Shown piece after piece: positions 5,860 to 17,638 of a stretch of DNA of 21,589 nt (its first letter is position 1; each line of letters starts with the position of its first letter). Source of the stretch: a virus; the IMG/VR virus record IMGVR_UViG_3300027782_000417, positions 1 to 21,589 of that record; one strand, written 5' to 3'. The position numbers were made by a program, and so were the translations under genes. A model generated the notes under the pieces. The model was given only the letters and a program-made list of their open reading frames with translations, searched no databases and was not told the origin of the DNA.

Positions 5860-6332
5860 GTGGAAAGAATCTCCTTCAACCGATCAGCCGCGTATGACGC
5901 AGCAAATGCTTCTGGCTTTACCTTTGGTGTGAATCCACAGAGACCACGAATGTATCCAGTCGCTTGCTGAATAACGCAGCTTGATCCGTGCATTTCATCG
6001 GGATTGATATCGAGGTGGACTTCCACATGCCTATCACCAATTGCTTCATACAGTTCTAGGTACATGTTCGCTGCACGATAGACTTCATTCATCAAACGAA
6101 ATGATGGCCGATCGTGGCGCTTATCGTAATCAAATTCCGATGTTACGTCACCGAATACCTTGCAGCCCTTGTTGCCATCATAGTGAACGACAATCGCTAC
6201 CGTGTAGTCTGCGATCCACTTACCATCTTTGCGACAGTAGCGTTCCGAATCTGCACCGATATAGATTTTTGTGGTGTCTGAGGTGTTGCTGATAAATTCG
6301 CGGACTTCATTGATGTTCATTGGTTTTCTCAT
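5856..6332 (-). CDS. RNase H-fold protein of the DUF458/YkuK family
   Basis: The 158-residue product matches the predicted RNase H-like YkuK/DUF458 pattern. It has an acidic first strand, KIYIGADSERYCR, then YTVAIVVHY, then RLMNEVYRAANMYLELYEAIG. The conserved VEVHLDINPDEMHGSSCVIQQATGYIRG and a KPEAFAASYAADRLKE end follow. The acidic residues would form an RNase H-like metal site, but activity of the family is not established to my knowledge. The frame is open through the upstream tRNA, so a real start must be internal. ATG at 6332 is given; ATG at 6320 with GAG upstream is an alternative. Confidence 0.8.
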   Translation of the reverse strand: MRKPMNINEVREFISNTSDTTKIYIGADSERYCRKDGKWIADYTVAIVVHYDGNKGCKVFGDVTSEFDYDKRHDRPSFRLMNEVYRAANMYLELYEAIGDRHVEVHLDINPDEMHGSSCVIQQATGYIRGLCGFTPKVKPEAFAASYAADRLKEILST

Positions 6333-6348
6333 GATGATATTTAGTTGG

Positions 6349-6424
6349 TGGTGCCCATGGTCGGACTCGAACCGACACTGTGGAGATTTTAAGTCCCCTG
6401 ACTCTGCCATTGGCCTACATGGGC
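6349..6424 (-). tRNA. tRNA-Leu(UAA), short variable loop
   Basis: The acceptor GCCCATG pairs with CATGGGC, with A73 and encoded CCA. The anticodon stem GGGGA/TCTCC closes loop CTTAAAA (anticodon TAA). The T-arm is GTCGG/CCGAC with TTCGAGT. Only five bases (ACAGT) separate the anticodon and T stems, so the class II long variable arm normal for bacterial tRNA-Leu is absent. Confidence 0.93.
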
Positions 6425-6468
6425 ATTACTCACTATATAGAATAGGATTATACACTCGGAGATTATTT

Positions 6469-7653
6469 ATGTCAAGCGATGATTTTTTTTGCCCTGCGCC
6501 TTGGACAGGATTGTATTACCATGAAAATACCGCATCACCGTGTCACATAAGCTTAGAAAAACAACATATGACGCCAACTGAATATTTGCAGAGTGATTGG
6601 CTTGCAAATATCAAAAGCGAATTGAAAGAAGGAAAAGTTCCTAAGAACTGTGAAGTCTGTTGGAAAAAAGAACAGCGAGGCCTTAAGAGTTCAAGACAGA
6701 GCGAAATTAGAATGATGGGTCGCGGAAGCTATGGTTATGGATTAGGAGTAAACAGACAATCATCAGATTTTAACGCAGAAGATCCTACAGAAGTTGTTCG
6801 TATTGAACTACGAGCGAGCAATCTATGCAATTTTAAATGCAGAATGTGTAATGCGGATTCAAGTTCCGAATGGCAAAAAGAAGTGGAAGAACATCCAGTC
6901 CTTTTAAACTACACACAATTTAAATTCAGAGATTTCACAAATACTTCCGAAGGTAATTTTGACGAGCTAAAGAAGCTATCATTAGATAATGTCAAAACTG
7001 TATGCTTCACAGGCGGAGAACCATTGCTAATAAAGCAGTACTATGATTTTATGGATCACATGATTGAAAATGGATACCATAAAAAAGTAGTATTGGAAAT
7101 GTTTACCAATTGCAGTGTATGGAATCCGCTTTTCATAGACAGACTAATGCAATTTGAAAAAGCTAGAATCGTAATGAGCATAGACGGTGTTGGAAAAGCT
7201 GCTGAGTATAATAGAAAAGGTACAAAATGGGATGTGGTTGAAGAAAACTTCATAAAATTTTCAAAGCTTCCATTATGGAATTTGCATTACAACGTGGCTA
7301 TCAGCCCATACAATCTTCTAGACTTTGCAAATCTAGCTAAGTTTTTGATGAAGATTTATGATATCAATCCGATCTTACAGACAAGATGCTATTCGGTAAC
7401 TTTACCATATGCTCTTCACTGGGTACATCTAAACAATGATCTCCGCATAAGAGTTATGAATGAGATTGATAAGTCAATAGAAATTCTACAGCCGTCTAAT
7501 TTTGATGTTCTCAAGAAAGAACTTCTTGCTATTAAAGCCCATATGCTTGAAACGAGACCCGAAAGAGAAGACCTCTTTATCTCATTCACGAAGACGCTTG
7601 ATACCATTCGCAATGAAAAATTTGAAGACGTTTATGGCTACAAGCTATATTGA
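6469..7653 (+). CDS. Twitch-domain radical SAM protein
   Basis: The 394-residue product is the only convincing plus-strand gene here. The radical SAM cluster is C120-x3-C124-x2-C127 (CNFKCRMC), with GGEP at 182-185 for SAM binding. The N-terminal part has C8 (FCPAPW), C25 and the C61-x2-C64 pair (CEVCWKKEQRG), resembling the auxiliary cluster region of twitch/SPASM-like proteins. The substrate is unknown; related phage proteins are widespread and uncharacterised. The ATG at 6469 has GGAG seven bases upstream. An open frame extends back to 6271 but runs through a tRNA. The gene is visibly AT-rich beside its neighbours and inverted, which suggests separate acquisition. Its TGA is directly next to the 3' end of tRNA-Gly. 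Confidence 0.88.
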   Translation: MSSDDFFCPAPWTGLYYHENTASPCHISLEKQHMTPTEYLQSDWLANIKSELKEGKVPKNCEVCWKKEQRGLKSSRQSEIRMMGRGSYGYGLGVNRQSSDFNAEDPTEVVRIELRASNLCNFKCRMCNADSSSEWQKEVEEHPVLLNYTQFKFRDFTNTSEGNFDELKKLSLDNVKTVCFTGGEPLLIKQYYDFMDHMIENGYHKKVVLEMFTNCSVWNPLFIDRLMQFEKARIVMSIDGVGKAAEYNRKGTKWDVVEENFIKFSKLPLWNLHYNVAISPYNLLDFANLAKFLMKIYDINPILQTRCYSVTLPYALHWVHLNNDLRIRVMNEIDKSIEILQPSNFDVLKKELLAIKAHMLETRPEREDLFISFTKTLDTIRNEKFEDVYGYKLY

Positions 7654-8099: not shown

Positions 8100-8630
8100 C
8101 TATGCCATTAACCAAATTGTTGCCATATTGTGATTAGAACCGTATGCACCCATTCCTGATCCATTATCTGGTGCTGGTGCTATGTGAATGGCCCACGATA
8201 TAGTATCACCAGCAGCACACGAAAGGATCGTTTCTAAATTCTGTGTGTCCCAAACGTCTTGAGTATTCCAATGGGTAAAATGCTGTAACACACCATTCTT
8301 GACTACACCATTATATCCAGAGTTTGTTGCTGTTGCTGCTGCGCTGCCGCCAGTGTAGGCGATAACCGCTAATGATGTATAATATAATCCTGCGACTGGA
8401 CAGGTAAAAACATACGAACTCGTACTCCATGCACTATTAACATTTACACCAAGACTGTTAATTGCCCAAGGATATTGCCGATCCTGTGTCGTAGTGCTGG
8501 TCTTAGAGCCAAACATAATAGGTTGATTTGGAACAAGCACTCTCGCATTCGAGTCAACCTTGGTTGAAGAAGCGCCGAATTTAATTCCGCCATCATATGA
8601 TAAGTTATAGCCGTTGATATTTAGTGCCAT
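8100..8630 (-). CDS. C1q/TNF-like fibre-tip protein, paralogue 3
   Basis: The 176-residue product has a short beta N-terminus (ALNINGYNLSYDGGIKFGAS). A C1q/TNF-like jelly-roll domain follows, recognised by FTCPVAGLYYTSLAV (about 83-97), a KNGVLQHFTHWN block and CAAGDTISWAIHI near the end. The two neighbours upstream share all three blocks. Such domains trimerise and act as receptor-binding tips or adhesin parts in phage tails. Its ATG overlaps the TAA of the preceding paralogue by one base, so translation is coupled. Which surface structure it binds is unknown. Confidence 0.82.
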   Translation of the reverse strand: MALNINGYNLSYDGGIKFGASSTKVDSNARVLVPNQPIMFGSKTSTTTQDRQYPWAINSLGVNVNSAWSTSSYVFTCPVAGLYYTSLAVIAYTGGSAAATATNSGYNGVVKNGVLQHFTHWNTQDVWDTQNLETILSCAAGDTISWAIHIAPAPDNGSGMGAYGSNHNMATIWLMA

Positions 8631-9157
8631 TATATGGTCAATCCTATGAAGAAGTTTCCATGGTCACCACCGCCATACCAATAACCATATGATGGATGTA
8701 TTTGAAAACTAATCGTATCTCCGACAGCGCAGTATAATAACCCGCTCATGCTAACATATTCCCAATACGATGTATGATTCCAATGACTAAAATGATGTGT
8801 TCCTCCATTCTTCATTATATAGAAATATCCGTAACTAACATAACTAGCAGCTCCGTGAAGACTTCCGGCGGCAATGCCACCTAAGCCTGCCAAATATGTT
8901 CCAGCAACTGGACATGTAAAATATCCTGTTGAATTATTCCAACAATTTCCAACATTTGCTTGAACGCTTCCAAACGTAACAGGATTACCTCTATAGAAAG
9001 CTCCTTGTCCAGATAGAATAGCTTTCATGTATGGAGTCTGCGGTCGTGTGATGATTCCATTGGAATTTACTGTCATCCAGTTTGTGGCACCATTGTTCAT
9101 CGTTAATGCAGTGCCTGCGCTTGATGCTAGAGTAATTCCGTTTACGTCTATTGCCAT
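8630..9157 (-). CDS. C1q/TNF-like fibre-tip protein, paralogue 2
   Basis: The 175-residue product starts MAIDVNGITLASSAGTALTMNNG, parallel to paralogue 3. It then has FTCPVAGTYLAGLGGIAAGS, KNGGTHHFSHWNHTSYWEY and CAVGDTISFQIHPSYG, followed by a Gly/Tyr-rich end. The conserved cysteines in CPVAG and CAVGD could pair or line the trimer interior. It lies two bases downstream of paralogue 1. Sequence between the conserved blocks differs strongly among the three, as expected for host-range surfaces. Confidence 0.82.
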   Translation of the reverse strand: MAIDVNGITLASSAGTALTMNNGATNWMTVNSNGIITRPQTPYMKAILSGQGAFYRGNPVTFGSVQANVGNCWNNSTGYFTCPVAGTYLAGLGGIAAGSLHGAASYVSYGYFYIMKNGGTHHFSHWNHTSYWEYVSMSGLLYCAVGDTISFQIHPSYGYWYGGGDHGNFFIGLTI

Positions 9158-9159
9158 TT

Positions 9160-9723
9160 TTATCCTATCAGCTTACACCAAATGGCATGATGGTTATGAG
9201 GATACCATCCAGCATTATGACTCTGCGCCGTAGGTCCAGCTGGCGCAGGAGATTGATTAATAAAAAATGCCAATGTATCACCAGCAGCACAAGAGAATAC
9301 CGATGAACCTCCTCCTTGATTCCATGCATTTGCTGTAGATATATTCCAGTGGATAAAATAACTTAGGGCACCATTTTTAGCAAATCCTGCATATCCATAA
9401 CTGTTAGCATCGAACTGACTACCATTCACTATTCCGTTGAATCCTACAGCATAGTATCCAGCAACTGGACAAGTAAATACGCCTGTTGATGTGTTAATAT
9501 GTCCGCTGTTATAATTGAAGCCATTAATTGGCCATCCGGTCGATGGAGAATAGTATGTGTCATTACCACTGATATCTTTCCAACCGCTATAACCTACTAA
9601 ACCAAACGTAGATGATGTGTACAAATCGGTACCGTATCCGCTGCTATTGAATACGAAATTGGTATTCATAGCAATGCCAGATCCTGAACTGTTTATCGTA
9701 GAACCACCGATATCTAGACCCAT
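9160..9723 (-). CDS. C1q/TNF-like fibre-tip protein, paralogue 1
   Basis: The 187-residue product begins MGLDIGGSTINSSGSGIAMNTN. It carries FTCPVAGYYAVGFNGIVNGS, KNGALSYFIHWN and CAAGDTLAFFINQSPAPAGP, then a His-rich end (NHHAIWCKLIG). It is longer than its paralogues in the loop before FTCPVAG. The ATG at 9723 is chosen because the longer frame to 9768 overlaps the preceding fibre gene; the true start follows that gene's TGA by one base. I infer a receptor-binding or fibre-tip role from the fold and position. Confidence 0.82.
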   Translation of the reverse strand: MGLDIGGSTINSSGSGIAMNTNFVFNSSGYGTDLYTSSTFGLVGYSGWKDISGNDTYYSPSTGWPINGFNYNSGHINTSTGVFTCPVAGYYAVGFNGIVNGSQFDANSYGYAGFAKNGALSYFIHWNISTANAWNQGGGSSVFSCAAGDTLAFFINQSPAPAGPTAQSHNAGWYPHNHHAIWCKLIG

Positions 9724-9724
9724 A

Positions 9725-10573
9725 TCAACTGCTCGCTTTCGGTGGAACAACAGATGGATCAACTTCAATCAATGCAAATTTAAATGTCTTACCACTCTTG
9801 TTATTGACTAGGAATAAATCTTCTTCGCCTTCAACGACCGTATAGTCGCCGATGCCATTTGATAGATGCAAGTCGTTTGTGTAGATGTTGCGCCAACGCA
9901 AACTAGAACTACCTAGATCATATGTGTTTGTAGTGCCAGGCCATATGCTATTATTCATATTTAATACACCAGCAGTATCACAATACATGTATCCAGCACC
10001 GCTATTGTCAGCATTATAGATAGCAAAGTCGCCACCGTTTCTCATAGAAAGTTGTATGCCGCCACCACCGCCCGATATCGTTAATATACCACTCATTGTA
10101 GTATTGCCGGAGACAGCAAGATTGGTACTGATGGCAGCACGGCCCGTATGCGTGAATAAGCCAGATGTTGTTGGTGCAGATTTTGTGGCATACAATGATG
10201 CAGCATTAGCTACCTGAAGTCTGTCAGATACCAGCGTTCTAATAGCAGTATTGGTAGCAGTGAGACCTGCCCATGTTGCATATGGACTTAAAGAAACGCC
10301 AGCTACTGGTGACCAGTAAACACCTGTGCCAGATGTTCGGAGATAATAACCAGCAGTACCGGGAGTATTGTTTGCTACGATGGCACTTTTGATGACTGTG
10401 TTACCAGAGATTGTCATCTTCCCTGGCATAATCAAATTGTTGGCGCTTACATACGCATCGCCAACCCATGTTTGAATTACATTGTCAACCGTCAACACAA
10501 TACCGCTAACGACGGCCTTGAATGTGTCTGATGGAGATACTGTTTCGCTTATTGAATCTGCATATTTTGCCAT
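9725..10573 (-). CDS. Tail-fibre protein with conserved C-terminal module
   Basis: The 282-residue product is Ser/Thr/Gly/Ala-rich with repeated short beta strands (ISGNTVIKSAIVANN, VSGNTTMSGILTISGGGGG), as in trimeric phage fibres. The last 70 residues (YDLGSSSLRWRNIYTNDLHLSNGIGDYTVVEGEEDLFLVNNKSGKTFKFALIEVD) form a module I recognise from tail fibres of marine T4-like phages. It probably carries or precedes the C1q-like tips encoded downstream. No clear ribosome binding site precedes the ATG; a box resembling a late promoter (ACTAAATA) ends five bases upstream. Confidence 0.85.
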   Translation of the reverse strand: MAKYADSISETVSPSDTFKAVVSGIVLTVDNVIQTWVGDAYVSANNLIMPGKMTISGNTVIKSAIVANNTPGTAGYYLRTSGTGVYWSPVAGVSLSPYATWAGLTATNTAIRTLVSDRLQVANAASLYATKSAPTTSGLFTHTGRAAISTNLAVSGNTTMSGILTISGGGGGIQLSMRNGGDFAIYNADNSGAGYMYCDTAGVLNMNNSIWPGTTNTYDLGSSSLRWRNIYTNDLHLSNGIGDYTVVEGEEDLFLVNNKSGKTFKFALIEVDPSVVPPKASS

Positions 10574-10587: not shown

Positions 10588-10663
10588 TGGCTGGGGATCA
10601 AGGATTCGAACCTCGGACATCCAGATTCAGAGTCTGGCGTTCTACCAACTGAACTAATCCCCA
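10588..10663 (-). tRNA. tRNA-Gln(CUG)
   Basis: The acceptor TGGGGAT pairs with ATCCCCA, with G73 and encoded CCA. The stem CCAGA/TCTGG closes CTCTGAA. The 5' TGGGG and G73 fit Gln identity. It lies seven bases from the end of the outer-membrane-type gene. Confidence 0.94.
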
Positions 10664-10670
10664 TCATACT

Positions 10671-12416
10671 TTAGAAGTTGATTTTCAATCCAATCATACC
10701 AACTGCGCCGGTGTAATTAGAACCTTTATCAGCTCCTGCTGTTAGTTCTATATATGCGTCCTTTACAATTTCAACCTTCGCGGTCGCACGTACCTGCGCG
10801 ACAGTACCAAAATCTCTGGAACGTGTCACTCTTGTTTCAACACCGAAAACATCGTCAATGTCATATCTTATACCAACATATGGTCTTGCTTCAAATGAAG
10901 AACCAACACTAGGCAATGTGGATAGCAATGCACTACCACCTTCGGTCTGCGATACTACCTCAGACTTGTTTAGTACGACACCAACTAGTGGTCTGAATCC
11001 TTCAAACTCCTTAGCGGAATAGAATGTGATATCGCCGTAGTAGTTTCTTGTCTTCACGGTGCTACTGTTCACAAGTGCAAACACTGGCAACGATGTTGTC
11101 GTGGCATATTCAGCGGTGCTATAACCAACTGCACCCTTGACCCAAACATCTTCCTGCTTTGTTAGAAAGTAAGCTGTGCCCGCATATGCGTCGGAGCTAG
11201 AAGATGAACCTACGAAGCCACTGTTTTCAGTCTTGGATATATTGCCAGCAATACCAGCGGTGTTATTCTCAACGGTTGTCTGATAGCCAAATGATAGCCC
11301 ACTGATACGGAATGAACCGCTTGTTTTCGCATAACCCAAGCTAGGCGTAGTCCATGCACCATCTTTAGTTGATAGAGCATCGACCAAGAATGGATTGAAA
11401 TTGCGAACCGCAATAGAATCCTTTAGAGATACGCCAGACGCAGATGCAGTCTGCGCTACTGGTTGACCGATTGTTATAGTAGCACCATTTTGCGTTGTTG
11501 TCAATGCTGTTCCGTTAGTTGTGACTGTGGTGCCATCGCTATATGTTTCTACCGCATGTGGTGTTGTCACTGTGGTAATGGTATATGGGCGTGTTGTCAC
11601 TGGCGTTGTGGTGCGTGTTATCGCAATCCACTGGCCAGAATTTACCCTCGCATTAGCAACATTATAAGCAACAACAGATGTTCCATATGCGGTTGAGGAT
11701 GTTGCGGTTGATGGCGCGTTGGCTGTACTAACGAGAGTGACAGGTGGTGGTGTTGGATTACCAGCCGCTGCACCCTGTGATGGAGTTGCTAGTGTGGTAA
11801 AGCCAACAGATGATGGGATAGTACACTGGTCGGGTGCGATGCTTACAGTTGAGCAAGCGCCGCCATATACGCCAAGCTGAATAGAATTACCGTTAGAAGT
11901 GTTATTCCCAGAGACTTCAAAAGCAATAGTGTAAGTGGTGCCAGCTGTAAGAGCCACACCTTGGTAAATGCCGTCGAACGAGCCAACAGCGCCATCATAC
12001 CATACGCCACCATGAGCGCCCCCAATATCAGTCCAAGTGCCAGCGGCAGCAGGATATGTTCCATTTTGATACCAAACTCCCCAGTTTGTTGGGGCTTGCA
12101 TGTTAGAAACGCCATTGTTGGTCGTTACACTAAAACGGCCGCCTGTGGTAAATGTTCCGTTAGTTAGAAGATTTGTGTTTGAACCGGCAGCGGTCAAAGT
12201 AACATTGTCAAATGTCCAGAACGCTGGATCTTCGCGAAAGGCAAAACCTACGAAGTTCGCTCCAGTTGTTGATGGAGTAAACGTGTAGGTAAATGGTTGC
12301 CATGTGTTTCTTGTATTGCCTGTAACAGTGCCAAGCGAACCTGATGGTAGCGTTTGTGCATATGGTGCTGTAATTGCCGCACACATTATTGCGGCGGCTG
12401 CTAGTAATCTTTTCAT
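10671..12416 (-). CDS. Secreted protein with autotransporter-like beta-barrel and lectin-like N-terminal region
   Basis: The 581-residue product begins with a Sec signal peptide (MKRLLAAAAIMCAAITAPYA, likely cut after A20). Residues about 25-190 look like one or two jelly-roll carbohydrate-binding modules (FVGFAFREDPAFWTFDNVTLTA, then WGVWYQNGTYP and WYDGAVGSFDGIYQG). C188 and C198 could form a disulphide. Residues about 200-320 are Thr/Ser/Pro-rich linker. From about 330 to the end, alternating strands with aromatic residues and the terminal GLKINF resemble an outer-membrane beta-barrel of autotransporter type, with the usual C-terminal Phe. This is odd in a phage: it would act in the infected cell's outer membrane, for example in superinfection exclusion. 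The ATG at 12416 has AGGAGC four bases upstream. Confidence 0.75.
   Translation of the reverse strand: MKRLLAAAAIMCAAITAPYAQTLPSGSLGTVTGNTRNTWQPFTYTFTPSTTGANFVGFAFREDPAFWTFDNVTLTAAGSNTNLLTNGTFTTGGRFSVTTNNGVSNMQAPTNWGVWYQNGTYPAAAGTWTDIGGAHGGVWYDGAVGSFDGIYQGVALTAGTTYTIAFEVSGNNTSNGNSIQLGVYGGACSTVSIAPDQCTIPSSVGFTTLATPSQGAAAGNPTPPPVTLVSTANAPSTATSSTAYGTSVVAYNVANARVNSGQWIAITRTTTPVTTRPYTITTVTTPHAVETYSDGTTVTTNGTALTTTQNGATITIGQPVAQTASASGVSLKDSIAVRNFNPFLVDALSTKDGAWTTPSLGYAKTSGSFRISGLSFGYQTTVENNTAGIAGNISKTENSGFVGSSSSSDAYAGTAYFLTKQEDVWVKGAVGYSTAEYATTTSLPVFALVNSSTVKTRNYYGDITFYSAKEFEGFRPLVGVVLNKSEVVSQTEGGSALLSTLPSVGSSFEARPYVGIRYDIDDVFGVETRVTRSRDFGTVAQVRATAKVEIVKDAYIELTAGADKGSNYTGAVGMIGLKINF
11476..11504 (-). 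promoter_or_regulatory. Promoter-like sequence inside the outer-membrane-type gene
   Basis: TTGACA (11499-11504), a 17-base spacer and TACTAT (11476-11481) occur within coding sequence for the Thr-rich linker. It may be chance or may give a shorter transcript for the barrel. Confidence 0.3.
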
Positions 12417-12474
12417 TTTTGCTCCTATGTTGCATGAAACAAACCTGTCATCAATACAACATAGCGAACAGAAA

Positions 12475-12564
12475 TGGCGGAAGAGGTAGGATTCGAACCC
12501 ACGGAACGCTTTCACGCTCGCTAGTTTTCAAGACTAGAACCTTAAACCACTCGGTCACTCTTCC
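12475..12564 (-). tRNA. tRNA-Ser(UGA)
   Basis: The acceptor GGAAGAG pairs with CTCTTCC, with G73 and encoded CCA. The stem CTAGT/ACTAG closes CTTGAAA. A long class II variable arm (GCGTGAAAGCG region) is present, in contrast to the tRNA-Leu genes here. Confidence 0.95.
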
Positions 12565-12869: not shown

Positions 12870-12877
12870 TATTTATA
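12870..12877 (-). promoter_or_regulatory. T4 late-type promoter box TATAAATA
   Basis: An exact TATAAATA on the minus strand starts one base after the CCA of tRNA-Ser(GCU) and points towards tRNA-Trp. T4-like late sigma factors recognise this box alone. Confidence 0.4.
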
Positions 12878-12878
12878 A

Positions 12879-12968
12879 TGGCGGAGAGTGTGAGATTCGA
12901 ACTCACGGAACCGGTTAGGGTTCGCTCATTTAGCAAACGAGTGCTTTAGGCCACTCAGCCAACTCTCC
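12879..12968 (-). tRNA. tRNA-Ser(GCU)
   Basis: The acceptor GGAGAGT pairs with ACTCTCC, with G73 and encoded CCA. The loop is TTGCTAA, and a long variable arm is present. Its first 14 bases are also the last codons and TGA stop of the amidotransferase-like gene. Confidence 0.95.
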
Positions 12969-13602
12969 ATAACCTATTCACAAAATCTAGTAACAACCCG
13001 TGATGTTTACCATCGTGCCAATATCCATCAAGATACTGATAAGGACTCTCATACCAAAATTCCTCACTCTCAGGATGGCAACCAATCAGACCAAGATTGC
13101 CTTGAATGATTGCCATCGGTTCATCATTAGCATATTTGGCAATAGTATCATATTTTCCAGTGCCTGTAAAGACACAACCGTCATAGAAGAACATCTTTTC
13201 TCTTTGACCAAGCCATTCAATATCAGCGACCGTGCCATAGCTTCGGCGTATCTCAGCCGTTGGTCGCTTGATATATTGAACCGCATCTAACCCGTCAAGA
13301 ATGTCAAAATATCTAGACCCAGCCCAATAAGCACCCATACAAATACCCACATACCGACCGCCTCGAGAAATGAAGCTTGCGATTGTATTGGCTTTCCGAC
13401 GAGTAAAAAAATCGAAATAGGAATCACTATCGCCAATGCCACCAGGAAAAACAATCCCATCCACATTACTTAGCACCTCGTTTATATCATCATTGATGGT
13501 AAATATTTTGATTTCATATCCAGGCGATAACGCTCTTATGATCCCGTTGCAGCATTGCTCGGAACATTCTGGATGGTGTTGAAAGAGCGCGAGACGTTTC
13601 AT
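12955..13602 (-). CDS. Class I glutamine amidotransferase-like protein (BPL_N type)
   Basis: The 215-residue product has the flavodoxin-like class I GATase fold seen in biotin-protein-ligase N-terminal domains. The predicted nucleophile C88 lies in the elbow RYVGICMGAYWAG, and H176 and E178 in GLIGCHPESE complete the triad. The N-terminus LALFQHHPECSEQ and DGIVFPGGIGDSDSY are also typical. A ligase or synthase partner is not fused, so the reaction is unknown. The ATG at 13602 has no ribosome binding site but sits six bases after an exact late-type promoter box, which suggests a leaderless or very short-leader mRNA. The 3' end runs 14 bases into tRNA-Ser. Confidence 0.85.
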   Translation of the reverse strand: MKRLALFQHHPECSEQCCNGIIRALSPGYEIKIFTINDDINEVLSNVDGIVFPGGIGDSDSYFDFFTRRKANTIASFISRGGRYVGICMGAYWAGSRYFDILDGLDAVQYIKRPTAEIRRSYGTVADIEWLGQREKMFFYDGCVFTGTGKYDTIAKYANDEPMAIIQGNLGLIGCHPESEEFWYESPYQYLDGYWHDGKHHGLLLDFVNRLWRVG

Positions 13603-14682: not shown

Positions 14683-14756
14683 TGGTGATCCTAACGGGAC
14701 TTGAACCCGCATTCATCGTTTTAGAGACGACTGCATATCCGCCATGCTCTAGGATC
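14683..14756 (-). tRNA. tRNA-Arg(UCU), first copy
   Basis: The acceptor GATCCTA pairs with TAGGATC, with A73 and encoded CCA. GTCGT/ACGAT closes CTCTAAA. It begins immediately after the TATAAATA box at 14757-14764. Confidence 0.94.
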
Positions 14757-17560: not shown

Positions 17561-17638
17561 TGGTCCTCCGTATCGGATTTGAACCGATGATCTCCGCGCT
17601 TGAAAGGCGGGTATGTTGGACCGCTACACCAACGGAGG
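17561..17638 (-). tRNA. tRNA with ambiguous anticodon: Glu(UUC) or UCA
   Basis: The acceptor CCTCCGT pairs with ACGGAGG, with A73 and encoded CCA. The T-arm is ATCGG/CCGAT with TTCAAAT. The anticodon arm can be drawn two ways. One has five pairs with a bulged C around CTTTCAA (anticodon UUC). The other has four pairs plus a C-C mismatch around TTTCAAG (anticodon UCA, reading UGA). A73 and C1-G72 are not typical for Glu. Confidence 0.8.

Follow-up and report, generated by a model that had tools for sequence, protein, structure and literature searches.

Introduction

Type Va autotransporters such as NalP, EstA, AIDA-I, EspP and Hbp consist, in this order, of a signal, a passenger, a helix and a 12-strand barrel, which ends in an aromatic residue as a signal to BAM. 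Phage-encoded autotransporters of this kind were not found in a library of open-access papers. Two predicted proteins from uncultured Caudovirales phage (A0A6J5L9T3, A0A6J5R861) are called 'Autotransporter beta-domain containing protein', apparently by annotation only. T4-type cyanophages encode YadA-domain proteins, whose name likewise derives from autotransporters, and which are regarded as virion parts of the trimeric-autotransporter type (PMC9146016).

A type VIII (curli) cassette has been described previously in pelagiphages and in phage Melnitz (PMC7029224, PMC9004378, PMC9599517). The purpose of curli genes in abundant marine and freshwater phages is debated; proposals include a lysis pore, an uptake channel and 'sibling capture'. 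In the study of phage Melnitz no clumping was observed in culture (PMC9004378). Neither cassette-linked autotransporters nor heads shared by barrels and curlin were found in these three reports.

In this study, we describe a gene from a 21,589-nucleotide stretch of viral DNA, the whole of which is referred to as the window. We consider it rather probable that the gene product is a phage-made monomeric type Va-like autotransporter adhesin, which would make infected cells sticky in concert with phage curli.

Results and discussion

The gene, its setting and its upstream elements

The autotransporter-like gene (P0001; 10671..12416, minus strand) encodes 581 amino acids. Its reading frame starts with ATG at 12416, immediately preceded on the 5' side by GGAG, and stops at 10671-10673; reading frame and relatives mark it as a genuine gene. 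An earlier note on this DNA, which left the strand unstated, had read a gene for a signal peptide, head and barrel at this place, and had read the sequence correctly. Comparison with 97% identical full-length relatives reveals purifying selection: dN/dS is 0.03-0.07 for the head, 0.13-0.19 for the barrel and 0.08-0.23 for the stalk. With a GC content of 0.466 the gene is close to the window as a whole (0.454). The gene is flanked by tRNA-Ser (12475-12564) and tRNA-Gln (10588-10663) within an array of 29 predicted tRNAs. The phage setting proposed in the note is borne out by relatives of 139-202 kb that carry gp23, the T4-type capsid protein, which was found in 6 of 16 searched records of relatives.

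Comparison with relatives revealed a conserved leader hairpin (12417..12469, minus strand) that overlaps or abuts the Shine-Dalgarno sequence. It is kept upstream of the gene in type-I relatives (L062, L064, L066, L074, L088, L022, L067), among which one or more base pairs of its stem differ on both sides (T-A versus C-G), and its pattern had no match elsewhere in the scanned loci, curli cassettes included. A candidate T4-late-promoter-like sequence, TATAAATA, lies upstream of tRNA-Trp, tRNA-Ser and the 581-aa gene (12870..12877, minus strand). The window has four TATAAATA sites, each of them on the minus strand, the coding strand here; 1.0 was expected and four were reached in 0 of 100 shuffles. 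By this motif count the four sites are candidate late promoters only. The classical T4 scheme with a late promoter within the hairpin does not fit, because the promoter-like sites, where present, lie upstream of the hairpin.

Predicted structure of the 581-aa protein

The protein begins with a Sec-type signal peptide (residues 1-20, 12357..12416, minus strand; MKRLLAAAAIMCAAITAPYAQ), and a comparable hydrophobic N-terminus is kept in the listed full-length relatives. Cleavage would take place near A20/Q21. Outer-membrane lipoproteins of the Cor/Llp type, which mediate superinfection exclusion, have a lipobox Cys after the signal, whereas the 581-aa protein has no Cys at its cleavage region.

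The head (residues 21-222, 11751..12356, minus strand) was modelled on its own as a single beta-sandwich of about 200 residues with concanavalin-A-like topology (pLDDT 90.3, pTM 0.89). The nearest solved structures are legume lectins of the concanavalin-A fold, with a borderline Z of 8.3 over 136-144 residues, a likeness that may reflect a common arrangement; Foldseek returned nothing for the head at E ≤ 0.001. The term lectin-like, used for this part in the note, is therefore fair for the topology and unproven for the function. Cys188 and Cys198 are invariant in 31 heads, bacterial heads included, and such a pair would suit an exported protein.

The head is followed by a Thr-rich stalk (residues 223-345, 11382..11750, minus strand), in the full-length model beta strands and then a helix at 330-340 that leads into the barrel. 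The Thr-rich composition described previously is evident, but the part from about residue 223 to 327 is predicted as long beta strands, mostly with pLDDT 80-94, and not as a loose or disordered linker.

The remainder (residues 346-581, 10674..11381, minus strand) forms a C-terminal translocator barrel ending in GLKINF. In the full-length model (pLDDT 81.9, the barrel mostly >90) it has 12 strands at 353-579. VIA-align superposed barrel and preceding helix on the NalP translocator with Z 28.6 and rmsd 2.3 Å over 252 residues at 16% identity; places 1-14 of its ranking were all type Va autotransporters, NalP being the best. The terminal Phe, F581, is invariant in 30 relatives, among which there are several diverged barrels. 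Structure prediction, which the note had suggested as a check, thus upheld its C-terminal barrel.

The 581-aa protein had no match to the Pfam Autotransporter profile PF03797 at E ≤ 10 and none in sequence searches of Pfam, NCBIfam, PADLOC and PDB, while PHROGs gave a chance-level match only. A sister protein with the same head (L085) does match PF03797 at 2.7e-17. As a profile comparison of the phage barrel with bacterial autotransporter barrels detected no sequence link, the relation between them rests on predicted structure. The 581-aa protein thus shares with type Va autotransporters the order of its parts, the barrel fold and the terminal aromatic residue, and differs from them in being encoded by T4-type phages, in its short passenger and in lacking a profile match to PF03797 or bacterial barrels. 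Taken as models, these data support an autotransporter architecture well.

Two alternative roles are touched by this architecture. Phage structural proteins with autotransporter-related domains are known, and the 581-aa protein might accordingly be a virion protein, as proposed for the YadA-domain proteins of cyanophages (PMC9146016). This seems very improbable in view of the N-terminal signal peptide found family-wide, the completeness of the membrane barrel with its invariant terminal Phe, and the association with exported curli proteins described below; the cyanophage proteins are of trimeric type, the 581-aa protein is a signal-bearing monomeric barrel. We likewise give very little credence to an outer-membrane load or pore that aids lysis, as proposed for phage CsgG (PMC9004378). 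A membrane barrel and a possible late promoter would suit such a role, but the helix before the barrel superposes on the helix that fills the pore of NalP, and the head, needless for a mere pore, is the best-conserved part of the protein.

Relatives in phages and bacteria

The homologue search, also suggested in the note, yielded about 60 phage relatives, metagenomic without exception, as well as bacterial homologues of the head. In IMG/VR the whole-protein search found 52 loci, the head profile 56 and the barrel profile 27, many of them on identical contigs, and related sequences entered these counts as separate contigs. There was no match to the 581-aa protein in an annotated phage collection; the predicted-structure library contained the two Caudovirales proteins mentioned above, at 54-60% identity.

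A genome scan with the head profile found head homologues at 8 loci on bacterial chromosomes (L054-L061), in the genera Dyella, Luteibacter, Zoogloea and Gluconacetobacter. These heads are 43-46% identical to the phage head and occupy the same position behind the signal. The proteins differ from the 581-aa protein in being long (open frames of 664-2406 aa, some ended by contig edges) and in carrying a PATR beta-helix; among three that were scanned, an ESPR signal was present in two and a Pfam autotransporter barrel in one. Thus in bacteria as well the head serves as the passenger domain of an autotransporter. No curli cassette was seen beside these bacterial genes. Together with the structure and the invariant terminal Phe, the bacterial autotransporters with the same head support the plan of an autotransporter or surface adhesin put forward in the note. 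Its further idea of a host-derived moron gene gains from the bacterial homologues of the head and loses from a phage family that is broad, has been shuffled and evolves under purifying selection.

Linkage to phage curli genes

The family is linked in the genome to phage curli genes. Of 36 family records, 21 contain CsgG; among the 8 that reach 100 kb or more, 7 contain it, and it was not found in a 177-kb relative (G024). Around CsgG the cassette is constant, comprising CsgF, CsgG, a curlin-repeat protein, a FecR-domain protein and a CHASE2-adenylate cyclase (Pfam-checked), in an order identical to that of the pelagiphage and Melnitz cassettes. The position of the autotransporter gene varies: it lies immediately upstream of CsgF (L073, L076), adjoins the cyclase in opposite orientation (L025, L029, L032), or is flanked by FecR and cyclase (L096, L097, L171, L176) or by CsgF and CsgG (L161, L168). 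In G001, the relative closest to the window (97% identical protein), about 30 kb separates it from the curli cassette, and the 21.6-kb window itself contains no cassette genes. Eighty phage curli cassettes, those most similar to the cassettes in relatives of the window, were surveyed with a strict filter, and 8 had an autotransporter-like gene nearby; most phage curli systems therefore appear to manage without one. A 1499-base 'Salmonella phage' record with CsgG (OR851715.1, hit H27) is probably a host fragment and not a phage.

Exchange of heads between barrels and curlin

The head of the 581-aa protein (head A) is not confined to barrels. In three loci (L095, L100, L101) the gene directly after FecR fuses this head to curlin repeats, with no barrel. 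A second, unrelated head ('AltHead', head B) is carried by type-I barrels (L015, L020, L022, L214, L217, L218, L222, L223, L228, L231) and by curlin repeats in L206 (59 bits over about 190 residues), where the Pfam match to curlin is sub-threshold and the repeats are plain by sequence. Phage Melnitz, whose lack of clumping in culture speaks against stickiness, has a curlin without a head in this slot. In gp018 of the cultured pelagiphage HTVC008M (L128:8639-9964), annotated as hypothetical, a PA14 domain is fused to curlin repeats, and L184 has an F5/8 type C head on curlin-like repeats as read from the sequence. PA14 and F5/8 type C are domain types often involved in glycan binding. Heads are also exchanged alone within one carrier, as follows from the comparison of L064 with the window, in which the head is 98% identical at the protein level and 92% at the DNA level, the signal peptide 30% and the barrel 40%.

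To judge by these fusions, heads are exchanged as modules between barrel and curlin carriers. We would give an even chance to the proposal that T4-type phages possess a modular display, in which adhesive heads (jelly-roll, AltHead, PA14, F5/8C and others) move between a type V barrel and the type VIII curli amyloid and turn infected cells into sticky host traps.

The same arrangements could be taken to mean that the autotransporter is an accessory part of the curli system, which anchors, nucleates or gates the fibres in the manner of CsgB or CsgF, and not an independent adhesin. The gene adjoins the cassette or lies inside it in several different ways, in two loci between CsgF and CsgG, and is positionally equivalent to the head-curlin fusions (L101). 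We nevertheless regard an accessory role as unlikely, since the lineage of the window keeps the gene far from the cassette and inside a tRNA array, most curli cassettes appear to be without an autotransporter, and the cassette already encodes a curlin subunit and CsgF.

Proposed function

The adhesin reading that we prefer may be outlined as follows. During infection, the 581-aa protein would be exported via the host Sec system, and its C-terminal barrel would be inserted by BAM in the outer membrane. The stalk would thread outward, and the lectin-like head would fold on the surface of the infected cell. Interchangeable heads would be mounted either on the autotransporter barrel or on curlin repeats, the curlin form leaving by the CsgG pore that the phage itself encodes. 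Infected cells and their debris would then stick to surface glycans or other cells, and new hosts would be near when virions are released. We infer that the head-barrel protein is exposed at the surface, binds glycans, acts in adhesion and is of benefit.

Heads that occur on both curlin and barrels, in the same operon neighbourhood, suggest that the common task is to display a binding domain; barrel and curlin would both serve to hold the head outside the cell. This common task and the presence of domain types in which glycan binding is frequent favour adhesion or aggregation over receptor masking. Among the options of the note, aggregation of cells is the best fit, given that phage curli genes accompany the family, and it would be the function that this linkage suggests. 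Single proteins that can be tested, the head alone or the head with its barrel, could address the curli question without a cultured phage.

A different role, superinfection exclusion or receptor masking, would have the surface protein cover or bind the receptor of competing phages. A surface protein produced during infection could act in this way, and other genes of pelagimyophages have been proposed to alter host surfaces (PMC7029224). We consider this role rather unlikely. The searches of PADLOC and PHROGs gave it no support, the heads are strongly conserved among near relatives, and they are linked to curli genes and not to receptor-binding fibres.

Nor are the C1q-like neighbours, which had made a receptor-related role attractive to the authors of the note, conserved. 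Three tandem C1q-like genes (8100-9720) and a tail-fibre-like gene (9725-10573) are inserted between tRNA-Gln and tRNA-Cys in the window. At this site the insertion is absent from the closest relatives, including the one with a 97% identical protein, and the C1q-like genes had no match in nine related records. As a functional link these neighbours were rejected, as they adjoin the autotransporter gene in none of the relatives examined. Because the insertion is missing in relatives, the C1q-like genes lend a receptor role no support.

Other genes near the locus

At 12955-13602 the window encodes a protein (BPL_N) that resembles class-I glutamine amidotransferases and has what appear to be Cys-His-Glu catalytic residues; in relatives it is a frequent neighbour of the autotransporter (L022, L062, L064, L066, L074, L088, L094, L096). 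A radical-SAM-like gene, recognised by eye, runs on the plus strand at 6271-7653, against the direction of its neighbours, and is conserved in L062 and L063. ARAGORN predicted tRNAs at 14683-14756 and 17561-17638 with the anticodons CTA (called Pyl) and TCA (called SeC), which have equivalents in L062; by their anticodons these tRNAs may read stop codons.
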